A stretch of 47,389 nt of DNA from Bacteroidales bacterium. Lineage in GTDB: Bacteria; Bacteroidota; Bacteroidia; Bacteroidales; Muribaculaceae. The notes below the pieces were generated by a model, which saw only the letters and a program-made list of their open reading frames with translations, did no database searches and was not told where the DNA came from. Positions 12,740 through 21,205 of the stretch are shown one piece after another (positions within the stretch are counted from its first letter, which is position 1; every line of letters begins with the position of its first letter). The DNA is taken from contig JAAVFI010000075.1 of NCBI GenBank assembly GCA_014800815.1, positions 1-47,389 of the forward strand. The letters are read 5' to 3'. Made by a program: the position numbers and the translations under genes.

Positions 12740-12970
12740 ATGGATACAACCAACGATATATACCGACGGATTCATTTCGCTGTAATGGCGATTGAGAGCG
12801 GAGCGCGTAAGCTGGGGATTTCCGGTAAGGAGATGCACGATCGGTTGAGCAAACAAGGCTTAATCCAAAGCAGGCTTATAAAAAGGTATGAGGAACTTCA
12901 TACACAAAGTCTCGACTGGGTTGCCGACGACATAAGCGAAACACTCTTAAACTGGGAGGCCGGATTATGA
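12740..12970 (+). CDS. DUF3791-type small protein (candidate antitoxin)
   Basis: 76 aa, all-helical. The pattern GISGKEMHDRLSKQGLI followed by YEELHTQSLDWVADDISE matches DUF3791 proteins, short cytoplasmic proteins nearly always next to DUF3990 genes. Its stop overlaps the DUF3990 start by ATGA (12967-12970), so the two are translationally coupled. An antitoxin or chaperone-like role is inferred from size, order and coupling. Confidence 0.7.
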   Translation: MDTTNDIYRRIHFAVMAIESGARKLGISGKEMHDRLSKQGLIQSRLIKRYEELHTQSLDWVADDISETLLNWEAGL

Positions 12971-13467
12971 TAATACTTTATCACGGTTCATACATAGAGG
13001 TGTCAGCTCCATTGGTCGGACTGGGTAGAAAAAAAGTTGACTTCGGACAAGGTTTCTACCTCACTCATCTGCATGTACAGGCAAAAGCGTGGGCAGCAAC
13101 AATTGCCGAAAGAAAAGGCCGAAACACAAAGCCTATCGTCTCGGCGTATGCTTTAGATTACGATTCGGTAAAAAACGATGGCTTCCGCGTCAAGATATTT
13201 TACTCATACGATCTCGAATGGCTCGAGTATGTGATCGACTGTCGGCGTGGAGGTGAGATGCAGAAGCTGTATGATATAGTCGAAGGAGGTGTAGCCAATG
13301 ATAATGTCATCGACACGGTTGAGGACTACGAGAACGGTATTATTACAGCAGAACAGGCTCTCGGTCAGTTGCGCTATAAGAATGTCAACCATCAGATCTG
13401 CATACTCAATCAGGAGATAATTGATAAGTATTTGACATTCAAAAATTCGGAGATTGTGCCGGAATAA
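12967..13467 (+). CDS. DUF3990 protein, ADP-ribosyltransferase-like
   Basis: 166 aa. The start has LYHGSYIEV (His6-Gly7), then DFGQGFYLTHLHVQAKAWA (Tyr31 in G-F-Y-L-T) and near the C-terminus NVNHQICILN (Gln143). His, Tyr and Glu/Gln in this order and spacing resemble the H-Y-E/Q triad of PARP-like ADP-ribosyltransferases, with His and Tyr holding NAD and the last residue as catalytic position. It is flanked on both sides by small DUF3791-type genes, the arrangement common in Bacteroidetes and Firmicutes. A modifying toxin or host-cell conflict enzyme is an inference; target unknown. Gln instead of Glu occurs in some active families and in inactive ones. Confidence 0.75.
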   Translation: MIILYHGSYIEVSAPLVGLGRKKVDFGQGFYLTHLHVQAKAWAATIAERKGRNTKPIVSAYALDYDSVKNDGFRVKIFYSYDLEWLEYVIDCRRGGEMQKLYDIVEGGVANDNVIDTVEDYENGIITAEQALGQLRYKNVNHQICILNQEIIDKYLTFKNSEIVPE

Positions 13468-13480
13468 ATGGTTATAGCGT

Positions 13481-13687
13481 ATGAGAGATAATGTACTATG
13501 GCGCAAGCAAAGTCGAATAATCATGCTCTTGGCTGATACCTTGAAAATATCGCCCGAGCGAGCCCTTGACCTATATTACACCACAAAGGTATACGAGCAA
13601 ATGACAGACCCAAAATATGGTCTGCAACTGATGAGCGACGATTACATTCTCGAAGAGTTGATTGCAGAACTGAGAGGGACCCAATAA
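13481..13687 (+). CDS. Second DUF3791-like small protein
   Basis: 68 aa, starting 13 bases after the DUF3990 stop. SRIIMLLADTLKISPERALD and YYTTKVYEQM are followed by KYGLQLMSDDYILEELIAEL. The helical layout is shared with small proteins that accompany DUF3990. Together with the upstream gene it makes the cassette small-large-small. Two different small partners may mean one antitoxin and one adaptor. Confidence 0.65.
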   Translation: MRDNVLWRKQSRIIMLLADTLKISPERALDLYYTTKVYEQMTDPKYGLQLMSDDYILEELIAELRGTQ

Positions 13688-13826: not shown

Positions 13827-16652
13827 ATGCAAAAGCATAACAATATTTCTGATGAATTAGCCCGACTTCGAGAGGAGAATGCGCGACTGCGGGCGTTGCT
13901 TACTCGTCACGGCATCACTGATGAGTTTACGCCTGCTACGCCTCAAAAATCATTGCTCTCATTAGAGGAAAAAGTCAACTTATTTCGCAGTCTGTTTCGG
14001 GGGCGGGAAGATGTCTTTGCCCGCAGGTGGAGTAGTTCTGCCACCGGCAAGAGCGGGTATCAGCCCGTGTGCGTACGGGAGTGGAATCGCGAATATTGCG
14101 ACAAAAAGAAATATAAATGTGCTGAATGCCCTAATCGAGAATTTCAACCGTTAGGATACCAAGATATTTATAGGCATCTTGAAGGCCGGGCTCCCGGCGG
14201 CCGGGATGTGGTAGGGGTATATGCAATCCTGGAAGATAACACGTGCAACTTTCTTTGCTGCGATTTCGATGATAAAAGTTGTGAGCACGGCTATCAGGAC
14301 GACGTTCGGGCTTATGTATCGGTCTGCCGCGACTGGAATATTCCGGCATATATCGAGCGGTCACGATCCGGCCATGGAGCGCATGTATGGATTCTGTTTG
14401 TGGAGCCGATTCAGGCCCGACAAGCCCGTCGGCTTGGCAACGCCGTTCTAACCGAGGCTATGGAACGCGAGGGAAGAATGTCGTTCAAATCCTACGATCG
14501 ATTCTTTCCCAATCAAGACTTTATGCCGGCGGGTGGCTTTGGCAATCTCGTGGCACTACCTCTTCAAGGACAGGCACGCAAGAATGGCAACAGCGTGTTT
14601 GTCGATGATGATTTTGTACCTTACGACGACCAATGGGGCTACCTTCAGCAAATTAAGAAGGTCTCATCGGCCGATGTCGAAAGCATATTATACAAATATG
14701 GCACGGCAGAGCCTCTTGGAGATTTGTCAAAATCAAGAGATTCAGCACCGTGGGAACGCCCGTTGCCCAAACCTATGTCCCGATCCGACTTCCCGCAATC
14801 GATAACCTTGGTGCGTGCATCAGGCATTTATATTCCAATACAAAATCTTTCGGGCAAAGCCATAAACCACCTGAAACGATTAGCGGCATTTAAAAATCCC
14901 GAATTTTATGCCAAACTCGGCATGCGGTTGCCGGTCTACAACTTACCGCGAATCATTTCTTGCTCCGAGATTACCGACGACTACCTCTTCCTGCCGCGAG
15001 GTTGCGAGGACAGCGTAGTTGACTTCTTCCGGGAAAACAAGGTGATAATGTCGCTCGAGGATAAAACTACTCATGGCAGCAAGATATGCGCAACTTTCAA
15101 TGGCACCCTGTATCCCGAACAACAAAAAGCATTGACTGCACTTTCCCGTCACCGCTGCGGTACCCTTCATGCCATGACGGCTTTCGGCAAGACCGTAACG
15201 GGCGCCGCCTTGATTGCCGAAAAGAAAACCAATACCCTGATACTCGTCCACACAAAGGCTCTCTTGGACCAATGGCGCAAGGAATTGGAGCAGTGGCTTG
15301 AGGTAGATTTTCGATCTGAAGACGTACCAAGAGCGCGGGGGAGAAAGAAAAAATTTCAGAAATTCGGGGCATTGTCATCCACCGAAAATTCATTAAATGG
15401 CAAGATAGACATCGCATTGCTCCAATCGTGCATCTCCGACAATGAAGTAAAACCGTTTGTTCGTGATTACGGAATGGTGATAGTTGATGAATGCCACCAC
15501 GCGCCGGCTGTCAACTTCGAGCGAGTGCTTCGCGAAGTAAACGCCCAATGGGTCTACGGCCTGACAGCCACGCCTATTCGCAAAGACGGTCACCAGCCTG
15601 TCATCTTCATGCAATGCGGCGAGATAGTATATACGGTCGACTCTAAGGTACAGCAAGATAGCCAATCATTCCGACGCGTACTCATCCCCCGATTCTCATC
15701 ATATCGCCCTGTAGACAATCTCGACGGAAACAGCTACGTACAAGTCTGCGAAGCACTCTCCACCGATGAGAGCCGCAACAAAATGATAATCGACGATGTA
15801 AAAGAAGCATTATCAGAAGGTCGCTCTCCGATAATACTTACCGCACGAACATCGTACGTAGATCTGCTCGCTGCGGCGTGCCGCGAAATATGCCCTAATG
15901 TCATCCGATTGGTCGGGAATGATTCCGCCAAGTCGAAGCGCGAGACCATGGAGCAACTGAGGGAAATCCCCGATCCCGCACCATTAGTCGTTGTGGCGAC
16001 CGGCAAATATGTCGGCGAAGGATTTAACCTTCCCCGCCTCGACACACTCATGCTCGCTCTCCCCGTATCATGGAAAGGACTCATAGCCCAATACGCCGGA
16101 CGCCTTCACCGCGACTATGAGGGCAAAGAAGAAGTCCGCATCTACGACTACATCGATCTCCGACTGCCAATCTGCGACTCGATGTATCGCAAACGCATCC
16201 AAGGCTACAAAAACATCGGCTACTCAATCTCTGTCGGCAACGAAGGACTCTTCGCAGACCCCAAAACAGATGCCATATACACTGCCGCTGATTTTGAAAG
16301 GGCCTTTTACGCCGACCTCGCCACTGCCGGACGGAGCGTCGTAATCTCAACCATACGTCTTTGCTGGAAACGCCCGCCACGCCTCATCGATTTACTTACC
16401 ACATCCGCTCGGCGAGGAGTCTGCATAACAATCGTCGTGGCCGAACCCGGACATCAGGAGGACGACCTCCGACAAATGGGCTTCACCGTCCTCCACCGCT
16501 CCGAATGCAAGATGCAGGCAGCCATCATCGACCAACACATCGGCTGGTACGGCACCGTAAACCTCATCGGCAAATCAATCGAAGACGCCACCGCAATTCG
16601 CCTCGATTCCCCCGACTTCACCTCATCCCTATTCGATGTCATGAAGCTTTAG
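13827..16652 (+). CDS. TOTE-type primase-helicase-phospholipase D fusion protein
   Basis: 941 aa in four parts. (1) A short coiled coil, residues 5-24. (2) An archaeo-eukaryotic-type primase domain, about 50-290: a Cys cluster around YKCAECPNREF, metal-binding acids in LCCDFDDKS (about 143-151) and SGHGAHVWILF (about 179-189), then NLVALPLQG. (3) An SF2 helicase, about 425-790: Walker A MTAFGKT (about 449), DECHH (about 553), LTATPIRKDG and the motif V/VI stretch ending in AQYAGRLHRDYEG. (4) A C-terminal phospholipase D-like domain in which the H-x-K motif reads C-K-M-Q-A-A-I-I-D, so the histidine is missing. This layout is that of proteins called TOTE conflict systems, proposed to act on invading nucleic acid. 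It is convergent with the retron RT gene. Confidence 0.85.
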   Translation: MQKHNNISDELARLREENARLRALLTRHGITDEFTPATPQKSLLSLEEKVNLFRSLFRGREDVFARRWSSSATGKSGYQPVCVREWNREYCDKKKYKCAECPNREFQPLGYQDIYRHLEGRAPGGRDVVGVYAILEDNTCNFLCCDFDDKSCEHGYQDDVRAYVSVCRDWNIPAYIERSRSGHGAHVWILFVEPIQARQARRLGNAVLTEAMEREGRMSFKSYDRFFPNQDFMPAGGFGNLVALPLQGQARKNGNSVFVDDDFVPYDDQWGYLQQIKKVSSADVESILYKYGTAEPLGDLSKSRDSAPWERPLPKPMSRSDFPQSITLVRASGIYIPIQNLSGKAINHLKRLAAFKNPEFYAKLGMRLPVYNLPRIISCSEITDDYLFLPRGCEDSVVDFFRENKVIMSLEDKTTHGSKICATFNGTLYPEQQKALTALSRHRCGTLHAMTAFGKTVTGAALIAEKKTNTLILVHTKALLDQWRKELEQWLEVDFRSEDVPRARGRKKKFQKFGALSSTENSLNGKIDIALLQSCISDNEVKPFVRDYGMVIVDECHHAPAVNFERVLREVNAQWVYGLTATPIRKDGHQPVIFMQCGEIVYTVDSKVQQDSQSFRRVLIPRFSSYRPVDNLDGNSYVQVCEALSTDESRNKMIIDDVKEALSEGRSPIILTARTSYVDLLAAACREICPNVIRLVGNDSAKSKRETMEQLREIPDPAPLVVVATGKYVGEGFNLPRLDTLMLALPVSWKGLIAQYAGRLHRDYEGKEEVRIYDYIDLRLPICDSMYRKRIQGYKNIGYSISVGNEGLFADPKTDAIYTAADFERAFYADLATAGRSVVISTIRLCWKRPPRLIDLLTTSARRGVCITIVVAEPGHQEDDLRQMGFTVLHRSECKMQAAIIDQHIGWYGTVNLIGKSIEDATAIRLDSPDFTSSLFDVMKL

Positions 16653-16753
16653 AGTGGAATATGTTAATTATAAAGGAGATATCTACGCATTTTCAATGCT
16701 GTTTAAGTATGATATAACACCTCTAAGACTTTCTTTTGAATTCTCATTCTTCT

Positions 16754-17518
16754 TTAGTCTAGCGACAATTTTATCATATCCCGGAGGTGGCGAAGTTTGT
16801 TATTGTGAACGACAACTCCAGTTACAACTGGATTTCTAGTTTTATAAAAGGTTTTATTGTGGCTAATCTTAAAACCATTATCACTAAGTATTCTCAGAAA
16901 TTCAGGTATTAGATGTTTGAAATCTTTGGACGAAGAAAGAGTCATATCATCTACATAAATAGAGAATTTGATTTTGTGCTGCATCGCTAAATCTGAAATT
17001 TTTTGACCAGTAGGAAGAAAAACCAGATTAGCGATTAATGTTGATGTTGGAATACCTTGTGGAACCTGTCCATCACGTGTAATAAGACGAGTTAAAATCC
17101 GTGCAATATCGGGTGTAAATTGGAGTGTTACTAGCGTTGTGTAAACTTGTTTATGAGAAATAGACGGGAAAAACGATTTTAAGTCTGTTGTGAATATATA
17201 TTTATTCCCCTGATGGAAGCGAGCATTTAAAATATTATTCTTTCCTTTAACGCCTCCATAGAAAAAGTTTGGCAGTGAAATATTAGAAAGCAAAAACCTA
17301 TATATTCGAGATTGAATATTTTTTAAATCTCCTTTTGAAGAGTTTATTGTTCGCTTTTTTATATTGCCATTTCCATCAAACTTTGGTTTGCCTGTCAGCT
17401 TATCCATCTTGACTTTTTCGAAAGAGTAATAAAACTCATCAAGGTGTGTCAAAATATAGTCAAGCCTTTCTGAGTTAACTTTCAATACATGTAATAGATG
17501 GCGTTTATTCTTAATCAT
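16754..17518 (-). CDS. Retron-type reverse transcriptase, C-terminus frameshifted
   Basis: 254 aa. The fingers motif NIKKRTINSSKGDLKNIQ (52-69), the retron region X motif N-A-x-x-H as NARFH (98-102), the catalytic TDLKSFFPSI (111-120), PQGIPTSTLIANLVF (153-167), YVDD (188-191) and the retron region Y motif VTG (232-234) are all present. The frame ends at LSLD, earlier than expected. Reading back one base at the AAAA run (16769-16772) opens IVARLKKN...SLRGVISYLN...IENA up to a stop at 16683, which looks like the normal thumb end. So the gene either has a one-base deletion, needs -1 slippage at A-AAA, or contains a sequencing error. The RT copies part of its own RNA into msDNA; the matching RNA gene lies upstream. 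Confidence 0.88.
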   Translation of the reverse strand: MIKNKRHLLHVLKVNSERLDYILTHLDEFYYSFEKVKMDKLTGKPKFDGNGNIKKRTINSSKGDLKNIQSRIYRFLLSNISLPNFFYGGVKGKNNILNARFHQGNKYIFTTDLKSFFPSISHKQVYTTLVTLQFTPDIARILTRLITRDGQVPQGIPTSTLIANLVFLPTGQKISDLAMQHKIKFSIYVDDMTLSSSKDFKHLIPEFLRILSDNGFKISHNKTFYKTRNPVVTGVVVHNNKLRHLRDMIKLSLD

Positions 17519-17539
17519 AAAAAGAATTTAGAGAGCAGA

Positions 17540-17773
17540 TTAGTTGAGCAACCATTCCCAGAAGAGCCTTACCCAAGGTTTAATTTGGTCATAGGCGGAT
17601 TTTACAACCACAAGACCTTTTGTTATAGACTTTATGAATCCTGTCAACGCAACAATCCATTTAGTCCATTCCTTCATCTTTGAGGTTTTCTTACTAATCG
17701 CGGAGGAACAATGGAGGGATTTCTGATTAGCCTTCTTCCCTCTGTTTGAAGGCTTTCTCTTATTTTTTGCCAT
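17540..17773 (-). CDS. Small basic/hydrophobic protein between retron RNA and RT
   Basis: 77 aa. The first 35 residues are highly basic (KNKRKPSNRGKKANQK), the last 40 hydrophobic with tryptophans (WTKWIVALTGFIKS, LVVVKSAYDQIKPW and VRLFWEWLL). It could be an amphipathic, membrane-active peptide. The gene ends 21 bases before the RT start on the same strand and follows the predicted msr-msd RNA, the place where retron effector or accessory genes often sit. I do not recognise a family; effector function is inferred from position only. Confidence 0.55.
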   Translation of the reverse strand: MAKNKRKPSNRGKKANQKSLHCSSAISKKTSKMKEWTKWIVALTGFIKSITKGLVVVKSAYDQIKPWVRLFWEWLLN

Positions 17774-17825
17774 AGTTGAAATTGTTTAGCTGTGACGACA
17801 TTGTCACGTGCCAAAACCAACATCG

Positions 17826-18083
17826 GTACATGCTAAAACTAACTATAAGCATTGTCTCCATTGCTCTCTAAATTTCACGTGCCATAAAATGACACTAAGG
17901 ATAACAACTATAAAGCACAATGGCCTATTATCCAATAAGGTAAAGTATAAACAACACTACAATACAACAATAAACCTAAAGGCTTGTAAAGTTGTGTCGT
18001 ACGGCCAGAGGTCTTTTGTTAACCAGGTCAACCCGGTTGGGTGCGAATTTAATCGCTTCAATTTTTAGTTTCGTTTTAGCTAC
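17826..18083 (-). ncRNA. Predicted retron msr-msd RNA
   Basis: About 258 bases, transcribed leftward, with no ORF. The ends are inverted repeats: the 5' arm (18066-18083) contains GTAGCTAAAACGAAACTA and the 3' arm (17826-17845) TAGTTAGTTTTAGC then atGTAC. They pair over GCTAAAAC/GTTTTAGC, AACTA/TAGTT and GTA/TAC with small bulges, as the a1/a2 arms of retron RNAs do. Inside are a stem AACCAGGT/ACCCGGTT (18021-18038), a hairpin at 17924-17940 (CCTATT/AATAAGG) and a stem GCCAT/ATGGC (17881-17885 with 17920-17924). A consensus promoter lies about 30 bases upstream. The branching G and the msr/msd border cannot be set by eye. Confidence 0.7.
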
Positions 18084-18121
18084 AAAAGCCTTCTCAGTAT
18101 TTCAATGTACTAATACTAATG

Positions 18122-18153
18122 CAAAGGTACAAACTTTAACTTGAATCTGCAAG
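18122..18153 (-). promoter_or_regulatory. Promoter of the retron
   Basis: Minus strand CTTG (18150-18153), 20 bases, TACCTTTG (18122-18129). Transcription should start near 18116, about 30 bases before the a1 arm, and give a leader of about 340 bases before the 77-aa ORF, which is the predicted retron RNA. Confidence 0.65.
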
Positions 18154-18997: not shown

Positions 18998-19474
18998 CTA
19001 TTTTGGGGTTGACTCAATATATTCTAAAGAACGCAGTATTGTTATGGATGGTAGAAAGTCTCCTATTGTTCTATATTGGAAATCTCGCACATTCATATTC
19101 TTAGGTAGTATGATATATTTGGTATGATCATAATACAATCTAATCTCAAAGCTTGAGCCAGAACCATTTCTATATTTGCCAATCTTTGTAATCTGTAAAG
19201 ATTTCTCTTTTTCTGATATATGAATCAGATCTGGTCCAATACAGTTCCCATCAAGAAAAAATGAAACTTCACTGCTCATCCAATACCCATTCATAGAATG
19301 AGAGCCCGACCCAATTTGTGCAATTATATCACATATTGATGAGATTGAGTCCTCATATAGTTTGGATAGATTCGTTTTTAGCGCAACTGACGTAAAATTG
19401 TTTGTTTCCATACAAAACCATCTTATGAGAGTATTATATTCCTGAAATATGTTAAAATATTCAATCCGATTCAT
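18998..19474 (-). CDS. Hypothetical protein next to the ATPase pair
   Basis: 158 aa, soluble, low GC. The N-terminal half is helical (MNRIEYFNIFQEYNTLIRWF, LSKLYEDSISSICDIIAQIG), the second half beta-rich (SSEVSFFLDGN, SSFEIRLYYDHTKYIILP). No signal peptide, membrane segment or catalytic motif that I recognise. It lies 50 bases downstream of the 175-aa gene on the same strand, so it may be the third gene of that set or an unrelated neighbour. Confidence 0.55.
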   Translation of the reverse strand: MNRIEYFNIFQEYNTLIRWFCMETNNFTSVALKTNLSKLYEDSISSICDIIAQIGSGSHSMNGYWMSSEVSFFLDGNCIGPDLIHISEKEKSLQITKIGKYRNGSGSSFEIRLYYDHTKYIILPKNMNVRDFQYRTIGDFLPSITILRSLEYIESTPK

Positions 19475-19524
19475 TCAATTGGATTCAGGGGCGTTCGGCG
19501 GGGTTGAAAATGGGAAGCTAACTA

Positions 19525-20052
19525 TTATTTTATCAACTTCCCATAATCCCAAGTCTGACCGACAGAGACTATTTTATGTAGGGCCAACTTTCTTCCCTGA
19601 ATGGAATTTGGTATTATCCGTAAATCCGTAGTACCCGATGAAACCCAATAGAATTCTTTTGTACCGGGAAGTTTTAGCATTTCAGGAGCTACCGAACCTA
19701 GCCAACGCTTGACAAAAATCACTTTCTTCACCATACAGTCAATTTCTGATGTATGCGCAGGGTGTATTTCAATGAAGAATGTCTTTCCAGCATAATCCAA
19801 AGCATAGTCCCATCGATTCTCATGCGAATATGTGGCTTTGGCTGCATCATCTAAGTTCACGCTGTAATTCAATCTTGACGTTGATGGAACCTTGATTTTC
19901 TTTCGTTCATTATTGCCAAATGCTCCTAATCCAACGTTCAAATATGGGCGAAGTATTGAACAATTCTCACATACCGAACGAAGCGTATCCGATGACGTTT
20001 CAGACAAGGAGAAATCTCGCATATTATCTTTATTTTTATTTCGCTTTCCCAT
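19525..20052 (-). CDS. Hypothetical protein with a nuclease-like D...E-x-H segment
   Basis: 175 aa from ATG at 20050-20052, one base after the stop of the ATPase gene; a TTG at 20061 would add three residues with an 8-base overlap. The middle reads RWDYALDYAGKTFFIEIHPA, a pattern like the PD-(D/E)XK nuclease core (Asp, beta strand, Glu-x-Lys) but with His in place of Lys. The following helix and a strand around KEFYWVSSGTTDLRIIP fit such a fold loosely. Tight coupling to an AAA ATPase suggests an ATPase-effector pair as in several anti-phage systems. Nuclease activity is inference. Confidence 0.6.
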   Translation of the reverse strand: MGKRNKNKDNMRDFSLSETSSDTLRSVCENCSILRPYLNVGLGAFGNNERKKIKVPSTSRLNYSVNLDDAAKATYSHENRWDYALDYAGKTFFIEIHPAHTSEIDCMVKKVIFVKRWLGSVAPEMLKLPGTKEFYWVSSGTTDLRIIPNSIQGRKLALHKIVSVGQTWDYGKLIK

Positions 20053-20053
20053 A

Positions 20054-21205
20054 TCACTCAAGATATTCAGAAACTACATTATTCATACGCGATGCAAATT
20101 CTGCTAACCCACCCCACTCAGATAGATAGGATTCATTAGAAGACACATCTAGACTACTAATATCTCTTGTCATCACTTTCCCATTATCCTCTTGTCGATA
20201 GAAATAATATGTTCTAATTGTTTTATCATACATTTTTTTTAACATTTTCCCTACCGATGAGTCAGGATTAACTTCTAACATTTTACAAATGGCCTTGTGA
20301 AAATGAAGAGAATTCCCTTTTATCGTATTAAAGGCCCAAGCAAATTCTAAGAAAATTGATGAATGTGTTGATACAATTACTTGGTATCCTGAATCGATCA
20401 ATAATTCAATTATTTGAAGAAGTACGCTTGCTATAGCCTTCGGATGAAGACCCATTTCTGGTTCCTCTATAATTACTGTGGAGTAATGATCTCGCTTGAC
20501 AACCTTTGAAGGTGGACCAGAGAGACAATAGAAAGCCAATAGCAAAGGCATAAATTCCTTCTGACCCGTACTCCAAGCCATAAAAGGAATCTTCATTCCA
20601 TTTACAGACAGAAGCATCTTCTTTTGACCAGATACTTCAGACATCACTACCTCTCCATTGTGAAATATATTTTTATCAAATAACTTCTTTTGCAGATTTT
20701 TAAATCTTTCCTTTATAGGAAAAATCTTATCCTTATTCCCTAGGCCGAACTGTACAAATGTTCGTAATGTCTCAGTAAATTCTCTTAGCACATAAGGAGT
20801 GGTAAATGAGAAATCACTGAAAAATTTCGGAAAGCCATCCCCCATACAAATAATTCTCTGTGCAGGCACATAGAACACCGATGCTTCCTTTCCTGATGAA
20901 TTTTTAGAGAGATTTTTGAGAGTCAAATTCGTATTGTCCAAATTCAAGATCGTATCAGCTTTCCATATTCCCTCCATTCCTTCTCCATAATACACATTCA
21001 ATATCTTCCGAGCATTGTGCCCAAGTATATAATTATACCTATCAAGTGTCTCAATGATATTATCTCTATCCTGGGCCAATTTTAGTGATTCTAATGCCAG
21101 GCTTTTCCCGCTGGCCTGAGGCCCGACAAAAAAAGTAAGGTCACCGAACTCAACATTGACATCAGCCAACGGTCCGAGGTTTTTTATTTCAATATGATTA
21201 ATCAT
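20054..21205 (-). CDS. AAA family ATPase, ABC/SMC-like (OLD/AAA15 type)
   Basis: 383 aa. N-terminal IEIKNLGPLADVNVEFGDLT leads into Walker A FVGPQASGKS (26-35). A signature-like WSTGQKE (211-217), Walker B TVIIEEPEMGLHP (243-255) and switch His in VIVSTHSS (276-283) follow. This is the AAA_15/AAA_21 type of ABC ATPase found in OLD nucleases, PtuA of Septu, AriA of PARIS and retron-associated ATPases. No TOPRIM domain is present, so an effector should be elsewhere; the next gene, starting one base after the stop, is the obvious candidate. GC content is clearly lower than in the flanking core genes, fitting horizontal transfer. Confidence 0.85.
   Translation of the reverse strand: MINHIEIKNLGPLADVNVEFGDLTFFVGPQASGKSLALESLKLAQDRDNIIETLDRYNYILGHNARKILNVYYGEGMEGIWKADTILNLDNTNLTLKNLSKNSSGKEASVFYVPAQRIICMGDGFPKFFSDFSFTTPYVLREFTETLRTFVQFGLGNKDKIFPIKERFKNLQKKLFDKNIFHNGEVVMSEVSGQKKMLLSVNGMKIPFMAWSTGQKEFMPLLLAFYCLSGPPSKVVKRDHYSTVIIEEPEMGLHPKAIASVLLQIIELLIDSGYQVIVSTHSSIFLEFAWAFNTIKGNSLHFHKAICKMLEVNPDSSVGKMLKKMYDKTIRTYYFYRQEDNGKVMTRDISSLDVSSNESYLSEWGGLAEFASRMNNVVSEYLE

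Follow-up and report, generated by a model that had tools for sequence, protein, structure and literature searches.

A stretch of 47,389 nucleotides (hereafter the window, contig JAAVFI010000075.1 of a gut Bacteroidales bacterium of the Muribaculaceae) encodes on its minus strand a reverse transcriptase (RT) preceded by a small open reading frame (ORF) and a leader, and the question it raises is which kind of system these elements form. A sequence-only reading had proposed a retron with an msr-msd RNA and an uncharacterised small ORF, possibly of a new type. The retron, its msr-msd-like RNA and the small ORF are supported by our analysis; the new type is not, and a break in the RT frame had gone unmentioned. 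As judged from its sequence, the system is a retron whose RT belongs to the type VI clade; it has a form that lacks the helix-turn-helix (HTH) gene and that has arisen several times. In our overall reading, to which we assign a probability of roughly 0.6, the basic small protein (SP) of this HTH-less type VI retron would be the effector, held by a complex with multicopy single-stranded DNA (msDNA). The most surprising part of the system is a coevolving direct repeat in the leader, which extends to canonical type VI retrons.

The RT bears both retron motifs noticed at the outset, NARFH at residues 98-102 (the NAXXH of region X) and VTG at 232-234 (opening region Y), and YVDD at 188-191. A 2019 review gives NAXXH in region X and VTG at the opening of region Y as defining features of retron RTs (PMC6868368). 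Among PADLOC models, RT_VI matches the window RT best (1.1e-76), 28 orders of magnitude ahead of the runner-up RT_III-A (1.3e-48). For the intact RT of a close relative (L002), retron models match down to 2e-37, whereas group II intron (4.1e-8) and Drt2 (1.6e-7) models come far below, none above the curated cut-off; with this relative as the test case, a group II intron or UG RT is ruled out for the window. The solved chains of the PDB nearest to the L002 RT are retron RTs, with retron-Kva2 first (36ht, 1.3e-21), and 12 of the 14 chains listed are named as retron, the other two only as RNA-directed DNA polymerase. In a maximum-likelihood tree of 39 RTs (34 of type VI and 5 less similar ones as outside rows), the window RT lies among type VI RTs, inside an HTH-less group of eight rows (support 97/95). 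It thus groups with retron RTs and not with those of group II introns or Abi/UG systems, and since it is of type VI by both profile and tree, a new retron type is ruled out. The locus was not filed as standard type VI because the HTH was tested for and is absent; it is a type VI variant, which differs from the canonical form by the missing HTH and a diverged, basic small protein. The type VI class is reportedly that of the classification by Mestre et al. from 2020.

To place the window (L001) among its relatives, we assembled 37 distinct type VI loci, 32 with tblastn scores of at least 120 bits and 5 added later. They came from a scan of contigs (8 loci), five whole-genome protein searches, a search around the family of one relative (3 of 123) and plasmids, for which the best 3 of 35 matching records were taken. 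At E <=1e-25, and with the window's own genome included each time, the genomes with a match numbered 12 of 393 in the order, 16 of 395 in the phylum and 5 of 397 in the family, a few of these matches being to other RTs; another genome search at E 0.001 matched 43 of 295, mostly other RTs. Seven stretches of viral contigs fitted a search pattern, none encoding a relative, and the three matches among phage records were just 29-31% identical. Some loci are redundant (L004 is a near-copy of L003, L039 shares its place with L061, and both are near-identical to L058), and for some of the 37 loci the sequence ends about 1-1.5 kb upstream of the RT match.

Canonical type VI loci have the order non-coding RNA, SP, XRE HTH and RT. 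By reading, we recognised in 23 of the 37 loci an XRE-like HTH, situated after the small ORF and ahead of the RT; these calls were backed by PADLOC HTH_VI on one locus and by tblastn on eight. The remaining 14 lack it (the window, L002, L003, L004, L010, L011, L039, L040, L043, L049, L051, L058, L062 and L063). A tblastn search with four type VI HTH queries gave no match in 13 HTH-less loci (L061 standing in for L039, and L004 left out as a near-copy) nor anywhere in the window, while all eight positive controls were found. The RT tree requires four changes of the HTH-less state, each forced by well-supported branches, and four losses of the HTH would be its simplest reading. Searches that demand an HTH would overlook such systems. 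One HTH-less locus, L058 (2761-3858), lies on plasmid pBUN2 of Bacteroides uniformis NBRC 113350, where its genes are annotated merely as hypothetical protein and reverse transcriptase family protein; its RT is 88% identical to that of L003, the locus of Mediterranea massiliensis Marseille-P2645. A canonical type VI retron (L059) occurs on a plasmid of Riemerella anatipestifer, adjoining IS4351 and floR.

What remains next to the RT in HTH-less loci is the small protein. A small ORF of 68-88 aa, its start picked by reading, is present in every one of the 37 loci, ahead of the HTH or, in HTH-less loci, ahead of the RT; its frame is broken in L010. Aligned with five relatives, the window SP shows invariant M1, P8, S9, G12, H21, C22, S23 and K48, and the SPs of its clade share a Lys/Arg-rich start, the motifs P-S..G and H-C-S without variation, and an extended end that is amphipathic or hydrophobic. 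The ratio of nonsynonymous to synonymous substitution rates (dN/dS) is 0.22-0.67 in five pairs of the window clade and 0.62 for L011/L040, small numbers that hint at selection on the protein. In a model of low confidence from three sequences, AlphaFold2 predicts one long helix (23-76) and a low-confidence N-terminal third (predicted local distance difference test score 66, predicted template modelling score 0.27).

The net charge of the SP differs with the presence of the HTH: its median is 0 (-6 to +5) in 22 HTH-containing loci and +13 (+1 to +16) in 11 HTH-less ones (p 1.8e-5, counting loci without correction for descent). Near-copies (L007, L004), the broken L010 and L039/L061, near-identical to L058, were left out. 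The mean charges of the four HTH-less lineages are +14, +12, +13 and +4, a clear shift in three of four. It looks as if the SP took over nucleic-acid binding in HTH-less loci, to judge by these charges. As to its relationship with the canonical SP, all three canonical SPs tested match the PADLOC model SP_VI (2e-5, 7e-15 and 9e-13), the HTH-less L040 and L011 SPs match it weakly (0.0066 and 0.0073), and no match was found for those of the window at an E cut-off of 0.001, of L003 at 0.1, or of L063, L043 and L049 at 10. In a single BLASTP comparison, the L040 SP aligns with the canonical L013 SP (8e-9), which ties at least the L040 lineage to SP_VI.

The leader is of the type VI kind as well. 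The promoter-like site lies where the sequence-only reading had placed it, and we take it to fit the Bacteroidetes -33/-7 consensus. Downstream, the leader has no minus-strand ORF of at least 50 aa, as had been said of it. The proposed a1 and a2 arms are also in place: 18082-18066 pairs with 17845-17829 (duplex of -14.0 kcal/mol), and the RNA 18090-17820 folds better than 200 of 200 shuffles (z -2.44). Type VI leaders have in common a 5' box (30 of 32 carry TTCTTTGA or a sequence close to it), a1, the msr hairpin, a variable msd and a conserved block before a2, and many have a hairpin before the SP. A full-length profile built from 14 HTH-containing leaders matches the window at 18096-17784 on the minus strand (E 0.0024 in 191 kb) and finds 9 of 12 other HTH-less loci, while the 25 control loci gave nothing at E <=10. 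A shorter profile limited to the 3' module found L002, L003 and others, the window not being among its matches, and gave weak matches to five control loci (E 3.9-10). At gathering score, Rfam has no family in the window leader or in 20 related loci, its sole match in the window being a tRNA; a hit to RT-11 at 17562-17689 (18.9 bits for a gathering score of 143.5) lies inside the SP gene and was taken as chance.

The arms coevolve between loci, and homologous leaders are thus structurally conserved. In 18 loci, the a1/a2 duplex averages -16.35 kcal/mol within loci vs -9.41 between them, a difference equalled by none of 20,000 permutations. The zones of arms and repeats had been set manually, guided by conserved landmarks and in a few loci with sight of the partner, and a1 and a2 are one base out of register in some rows of the leader alignment; a rerun with zones fixed by distance served as a check. 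It gave -29.4 vs -25.5 kcal/mol (1 of 10,000; 19 loci, without L009, L049 and L063), with 8,906 of 10,000 for a control zone. The a2 arm has a second potential partner, a1', beside the start of the small ORF: the a2/a1' pairing averages -7.37 within vs -5.03 between loci (0 of 20,000, 18 loci), weaker than a1/a2. The sequence identity of a1 and a1' is not significant (421 of 5,000), only their shared pairing with a2 being so.

The same leaders hold the repeat, a sharply delimited element. In most loci a word of 7-13 nt occurs twice, once 35-51 nt 5' of a2 (DR1) and once between a2 and the start of the SP (DR2); the word of the window, TGGCACGTGA, stands at 17884-17875 and again at 17813-17804. 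The distance from DR1 to a2 is 35-43 nt in all representatives except L045, and the two copies are 57-72 nt apart, or 96 in L016. The word varies between loci and the copies agree: the shared word averages 8.78 nt within loci vs 5.78 between (0 of 20,000, 18 loci), and with fixed-distance zones 8.45 vs 6.47 (0 of 10,000, 22 loci). The agreement holds in the six HTH-less representatives alone (5 of 5,000) and is gone when the zones are shifted 75 or 150 nt 5' (1,015 and 4,460 of 5,000). Because the core was anchored on identity, the flanks alone are independent: on the 5' side (-3 to -1), 45 of 51 cells match vs about 19 expected by re-pairing, in 17 loci (L041 and L044, which have no repeat, and the near-copy L017 were left out). 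Not every locus conforms. Five of 32 (L041, L044, L049, L052 and L054) have no convincing repeat at the usual spacing; when single loci are shuffled, the observed word is equalled by at most 18 of 500 shuffles for 14 of the 18 loci and by 56-125 for L009, L041, L053 and L016; and in 8 of 18 loci no other partner does as well as the own one. A search for an anti-repeat sequence upstream gave no significant signal (427 of 5,000). These comparisons of sequences favour a constraint of identity between the copies, without choosing among the three readings of it that are weighed below.

How could such a system work? In retrons, a toxin is held in a complex of RT and msDNA until a phage disturbs that complex. 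Applied to the type VI variant, one transcript starting near 18.12 kb would carry the msr-msd RNA and the messages of SP and RT. The RT would bind the msr hairpin and, primed beside the a1/a2 duplex, copy msd into msDNA, a step we infer from homology. In canonical type VI the XRE HTH would probably sit on the msDNA and help keep the SP inactive, and in the HTH-less lineage the basic N-terminal half of the SP would probably contact msDNA or RNA directly. A phage that disturbed the msDNA complex would free the SP, whose C-terminal amphipathic helix may harm the host membrane and so lead to abortive infection. The analogy comes from retron-Kva2 (type IX), in which a winged-helix protein contacts the msDNA via arginines and lysines and the complex sequesters a toxic HEPN RNase (PMC13405049). 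On this model, reading of the msDNA would fall to the type VI HTH, with the SP as effector; after loss of the HTH, the basic half of the SP could do both. The four cases of HTH absence, three with a charge shift, likewise point to the SP as effector and the HTH as a replaceable msDNA-binding adaptor.

Known systems resemble this one in part. With PADLOC type VI (RT_VI, HTH_VI, SP_VI) the window shares the RT clade, the order of non-coding RNA, small ORF and RT, the leader architecture, a1/a2, the msr hairpin and the direct repeat; it differs by having no HTH gene, a strongly basic small protein unrecognised by SP_VI and a broken RT frame. Type IV retrons (Ec48) presumably have a membrane-type effector, as has been proposed; their small protein is unrelated, and no type IV RT model is among the best 25 of 63 PADLOC matches. 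With Kva2, the likeness would be the tripartite logic, a DNA-binding protein that reads msDNA and a toxin held in the complex (PMC13405049), as we propose for type VI, whereas neither the winged-helix protein nor the HEPN RNase of Kva2 is seen at the window locus. A 2019 review lists Bacteroidetes with the groups in which no retron had been validated experimentally (PMC6868368), although a review of 2022 gives msDNA synthesis as shown in Bacteroides (PMC8867640). In titles and abstract openings, a scope that most subscription papers and preprints fall outside, we found neither an HTH-less type VI retron nor a direct repeat in type VI RNA, and the literature searched gave no description of the working mechanism of type VI.

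Several observations weigh against the SP as an msDNA-held effector. Some SP pairs have dN/dS near 0.5-0.67, weak evidence of selection. Two HTH-less loci, L049 (+7) and L051 (+1), show no clear charge shift, and the charge test counts loci, yet there are just four independent changes. The window SP has no family match in PADLOC, Pfam or NCBIfam, and hhalign of the window-clade SP profile against the canonical one gives a probability of 0.5, no match; because the window-clade SP is unmatched, its homology to SP_VI hangs on position and on the L011 and L040 SPs. Three of the 13 HTH-less targets (L049, L051 and L063) escape the full-length leader profile. Finally, the RT of the window is broken, so that this copy may do nothing.

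The break is a one-base shift of the frame within region Y: the open frame ends at 16754, and the conserved C-terminus is read in a different frame, as far as about 16683. In L002 and L010, the closest two relatives (RT protein identity of about 88-89%), the RT is uninterrupted at 278 aa and region Y is intact, which makes this a defect of the window copy and not of its clade. Since region Y guides a retron RT to its own msr, as stated in the 2019 review (PMC6868368), the window copy may be unable to produce msDNA if the break is real and not a product of assembly. L010 is a mirror image of the window, with an intact RT and a small-ORF frame broken within an A-rich run. We give about even odds to the view that the window locus is a decayed copy that has lost its function. 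The displaced RT frame and the broken SP of so near a relative speak for it; the leader, the SP and the remaining RT of the window are well preserved, L002 is intact in both SP and RT, and either break could stem from assembly (the source genome, 99.89% complete, is in 79 contigs).

The repeat calls for an explanation of its own. Its two copies might be a duplicated binding site on RNA or DNA for a protein, RT or SP, with no role in pairing and with the HTH as a dispensable autoregulator. We hold this to be possible, short of probable. A common core (CA plus G) is visible across loci; the repeat as an operator of the HTH itself is rejected as unlikely, since it persists where the HTH is absent. 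The variable 5' flank, however, matches between copies beyond what a plain binding consensus would need.

Alternatively, the cDNA of DR1 might pair in cis with DR2 and repress translation of the SP, so that destruction of the msDNA would turn the SP on; the choice of a2 between a1 and a1' would aid such a switch, which is compatible with the SP being the effector of an HTH-less type VI retron. In each of the 17 representative loci that have a repeat, DR1 falls within the predicted template, 35-51 nt 5' of a2; DR2 sits in the leader of the SP, agreement of the copies is closer within loci than between them even among the six HTH-less representatives, and the a2/a1' pairing coevolves too. Against this stand the shortness of the repeat (just 7-13 nt), an msDNA that is only predicted, the similar pattern that a duplicated protein-binding motif could give, and the loci without a convincing repeat (5 of 32), not beyond shuffles (4 of 18) or with a partner elsewhere that is as good or better (all but 8 of 18), and we consider antisense control of this kind unlikely.

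More improbable still is a template pair of the A-B-A' kind, in which the cDNA end from DR1 would re-anneal at DR2 and be recopied by the RT into tandem repeats with a unit of about 57-96 nt: a sharp identity block of 7-8 nt fits it, but it shares the weaknesses of the repeat just named, priming of the retron kind, beside a1/a2, should leave a2 uncopied, and B would be about 50-60 nt here, when in DRT10 a B of 20 nt already gave no detectable repeat addition (PMC12632851). A neo-like endless ORF, as described for DRT2 (PMC12039810), is ruled out, the spacing being a multiple of three in just 9 of 17 loci. The likeness to DRT10 (UG17), in which direct repeats flank the RT template of a non-coding RNA, is one of geometry only, with the template here predicted; DRT10 is protein-primed, with a SLATT partner and 9-nt units, whereas the window has a retron RT, a1/a2 arms and a much longer spacing (PMC12632851). 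No SLATT family was found among the window proteins scanned with PADLOC and Pfam, and the window RT is of retron type VI, not of a UG class.

Tentatively, these coevolving repeats might be built into type VI retrons at large, the msDNA either pairing with the SP message, as an antisense control of the toxin, or resetting on the second repeat to give a tandem-repeat cDNA in the style of telomerase or DRT10. Repeat, RNA, RT and basic SP would then be the minimal working unit, as the HTH-less lineages suggest. The elements of the locus are listed in Table 1.

Table 1. Elements of the HTH-less type VI retron in the window, in order of transcription.
Feature	Coordinates	Strand	Basis or remark
Promoter-like site, TTG - 20 nt - TACCTTTG	18122..18152	-	Read in sequence; CTTTGCA portion also present in L002 and L010
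Conserved 5' box, a variant of the TTCTTTGA box that type VI leaders have near their start	18098..18113	-	Leader comparison
a1 arm of msr-msd RNA	18066..18082	-	Pairs with a2
msr hairpin (after GAAG/AAAG), likely the RT recognition hairpin	18043..18056	-	Alike in HTH-containing and HTH-less leaders, by reading
Variable msd template region, predicted; cDNA start expected near 17846, at the boundary with a2	17846..18042	-	Position relative to arms
DR1, first repeat copy, inside predicted template	17875..17884	-	10-nt identity with DR2, 71 nt apart
a2 arm	17829..17845	-	Pairs with a1
DR2, second repeat copy, in small-ORF leader	17804..17813	-	10-nt identity with DR1
Small hairpin overlapping the 3' end of DR2	17792..17809	-	Read in sequence; comparable hairpin visible in many type VI leaders
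a1' element beside small-ORF start, alternative a2 partner	17784..17792	-	Within-locus pairing
SP, 77 aa, candidate effector; basic N-terminal half (+12), long amphipathic/hydrophobic C-terminal segment	17540..17773	-	ORF
RT, retron type VI, open frame of 254 aa	16754..17518	-	PADLOC RT_VI 1.1e-76; Pfam RVT_1 1.5e-17
RT coding tail, displaced frame; region Y (msr-binding part) broken	16683..16753	-	DNA alignment with L002 and L010

Other genes lie close to the retron. At 12740-13687 on the plus strand, a DUF3990 protein (PADLOC PDC-M13B) is flanked on either side by a small DUF3791-like ORF, the match of the second being weak and under the cut-off. Adjoining the retron on the minus strand, 18998-21205 encodes an ATPase (PADLOC PDC-M56A, 5e-150) and a PDC-M56B protein (2e-37), and the ORF at 18998-19474, without a family match, is possibly an unlisted third gene of this PDC-M56 candidate defence system. 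Converging on the end of the retron RT is a fusion of archaeo-eukaryotic primase and helicase of the TOTE type (13827-16652, plus strand, 941 aa), which together with its neighbours suggests a defence island.
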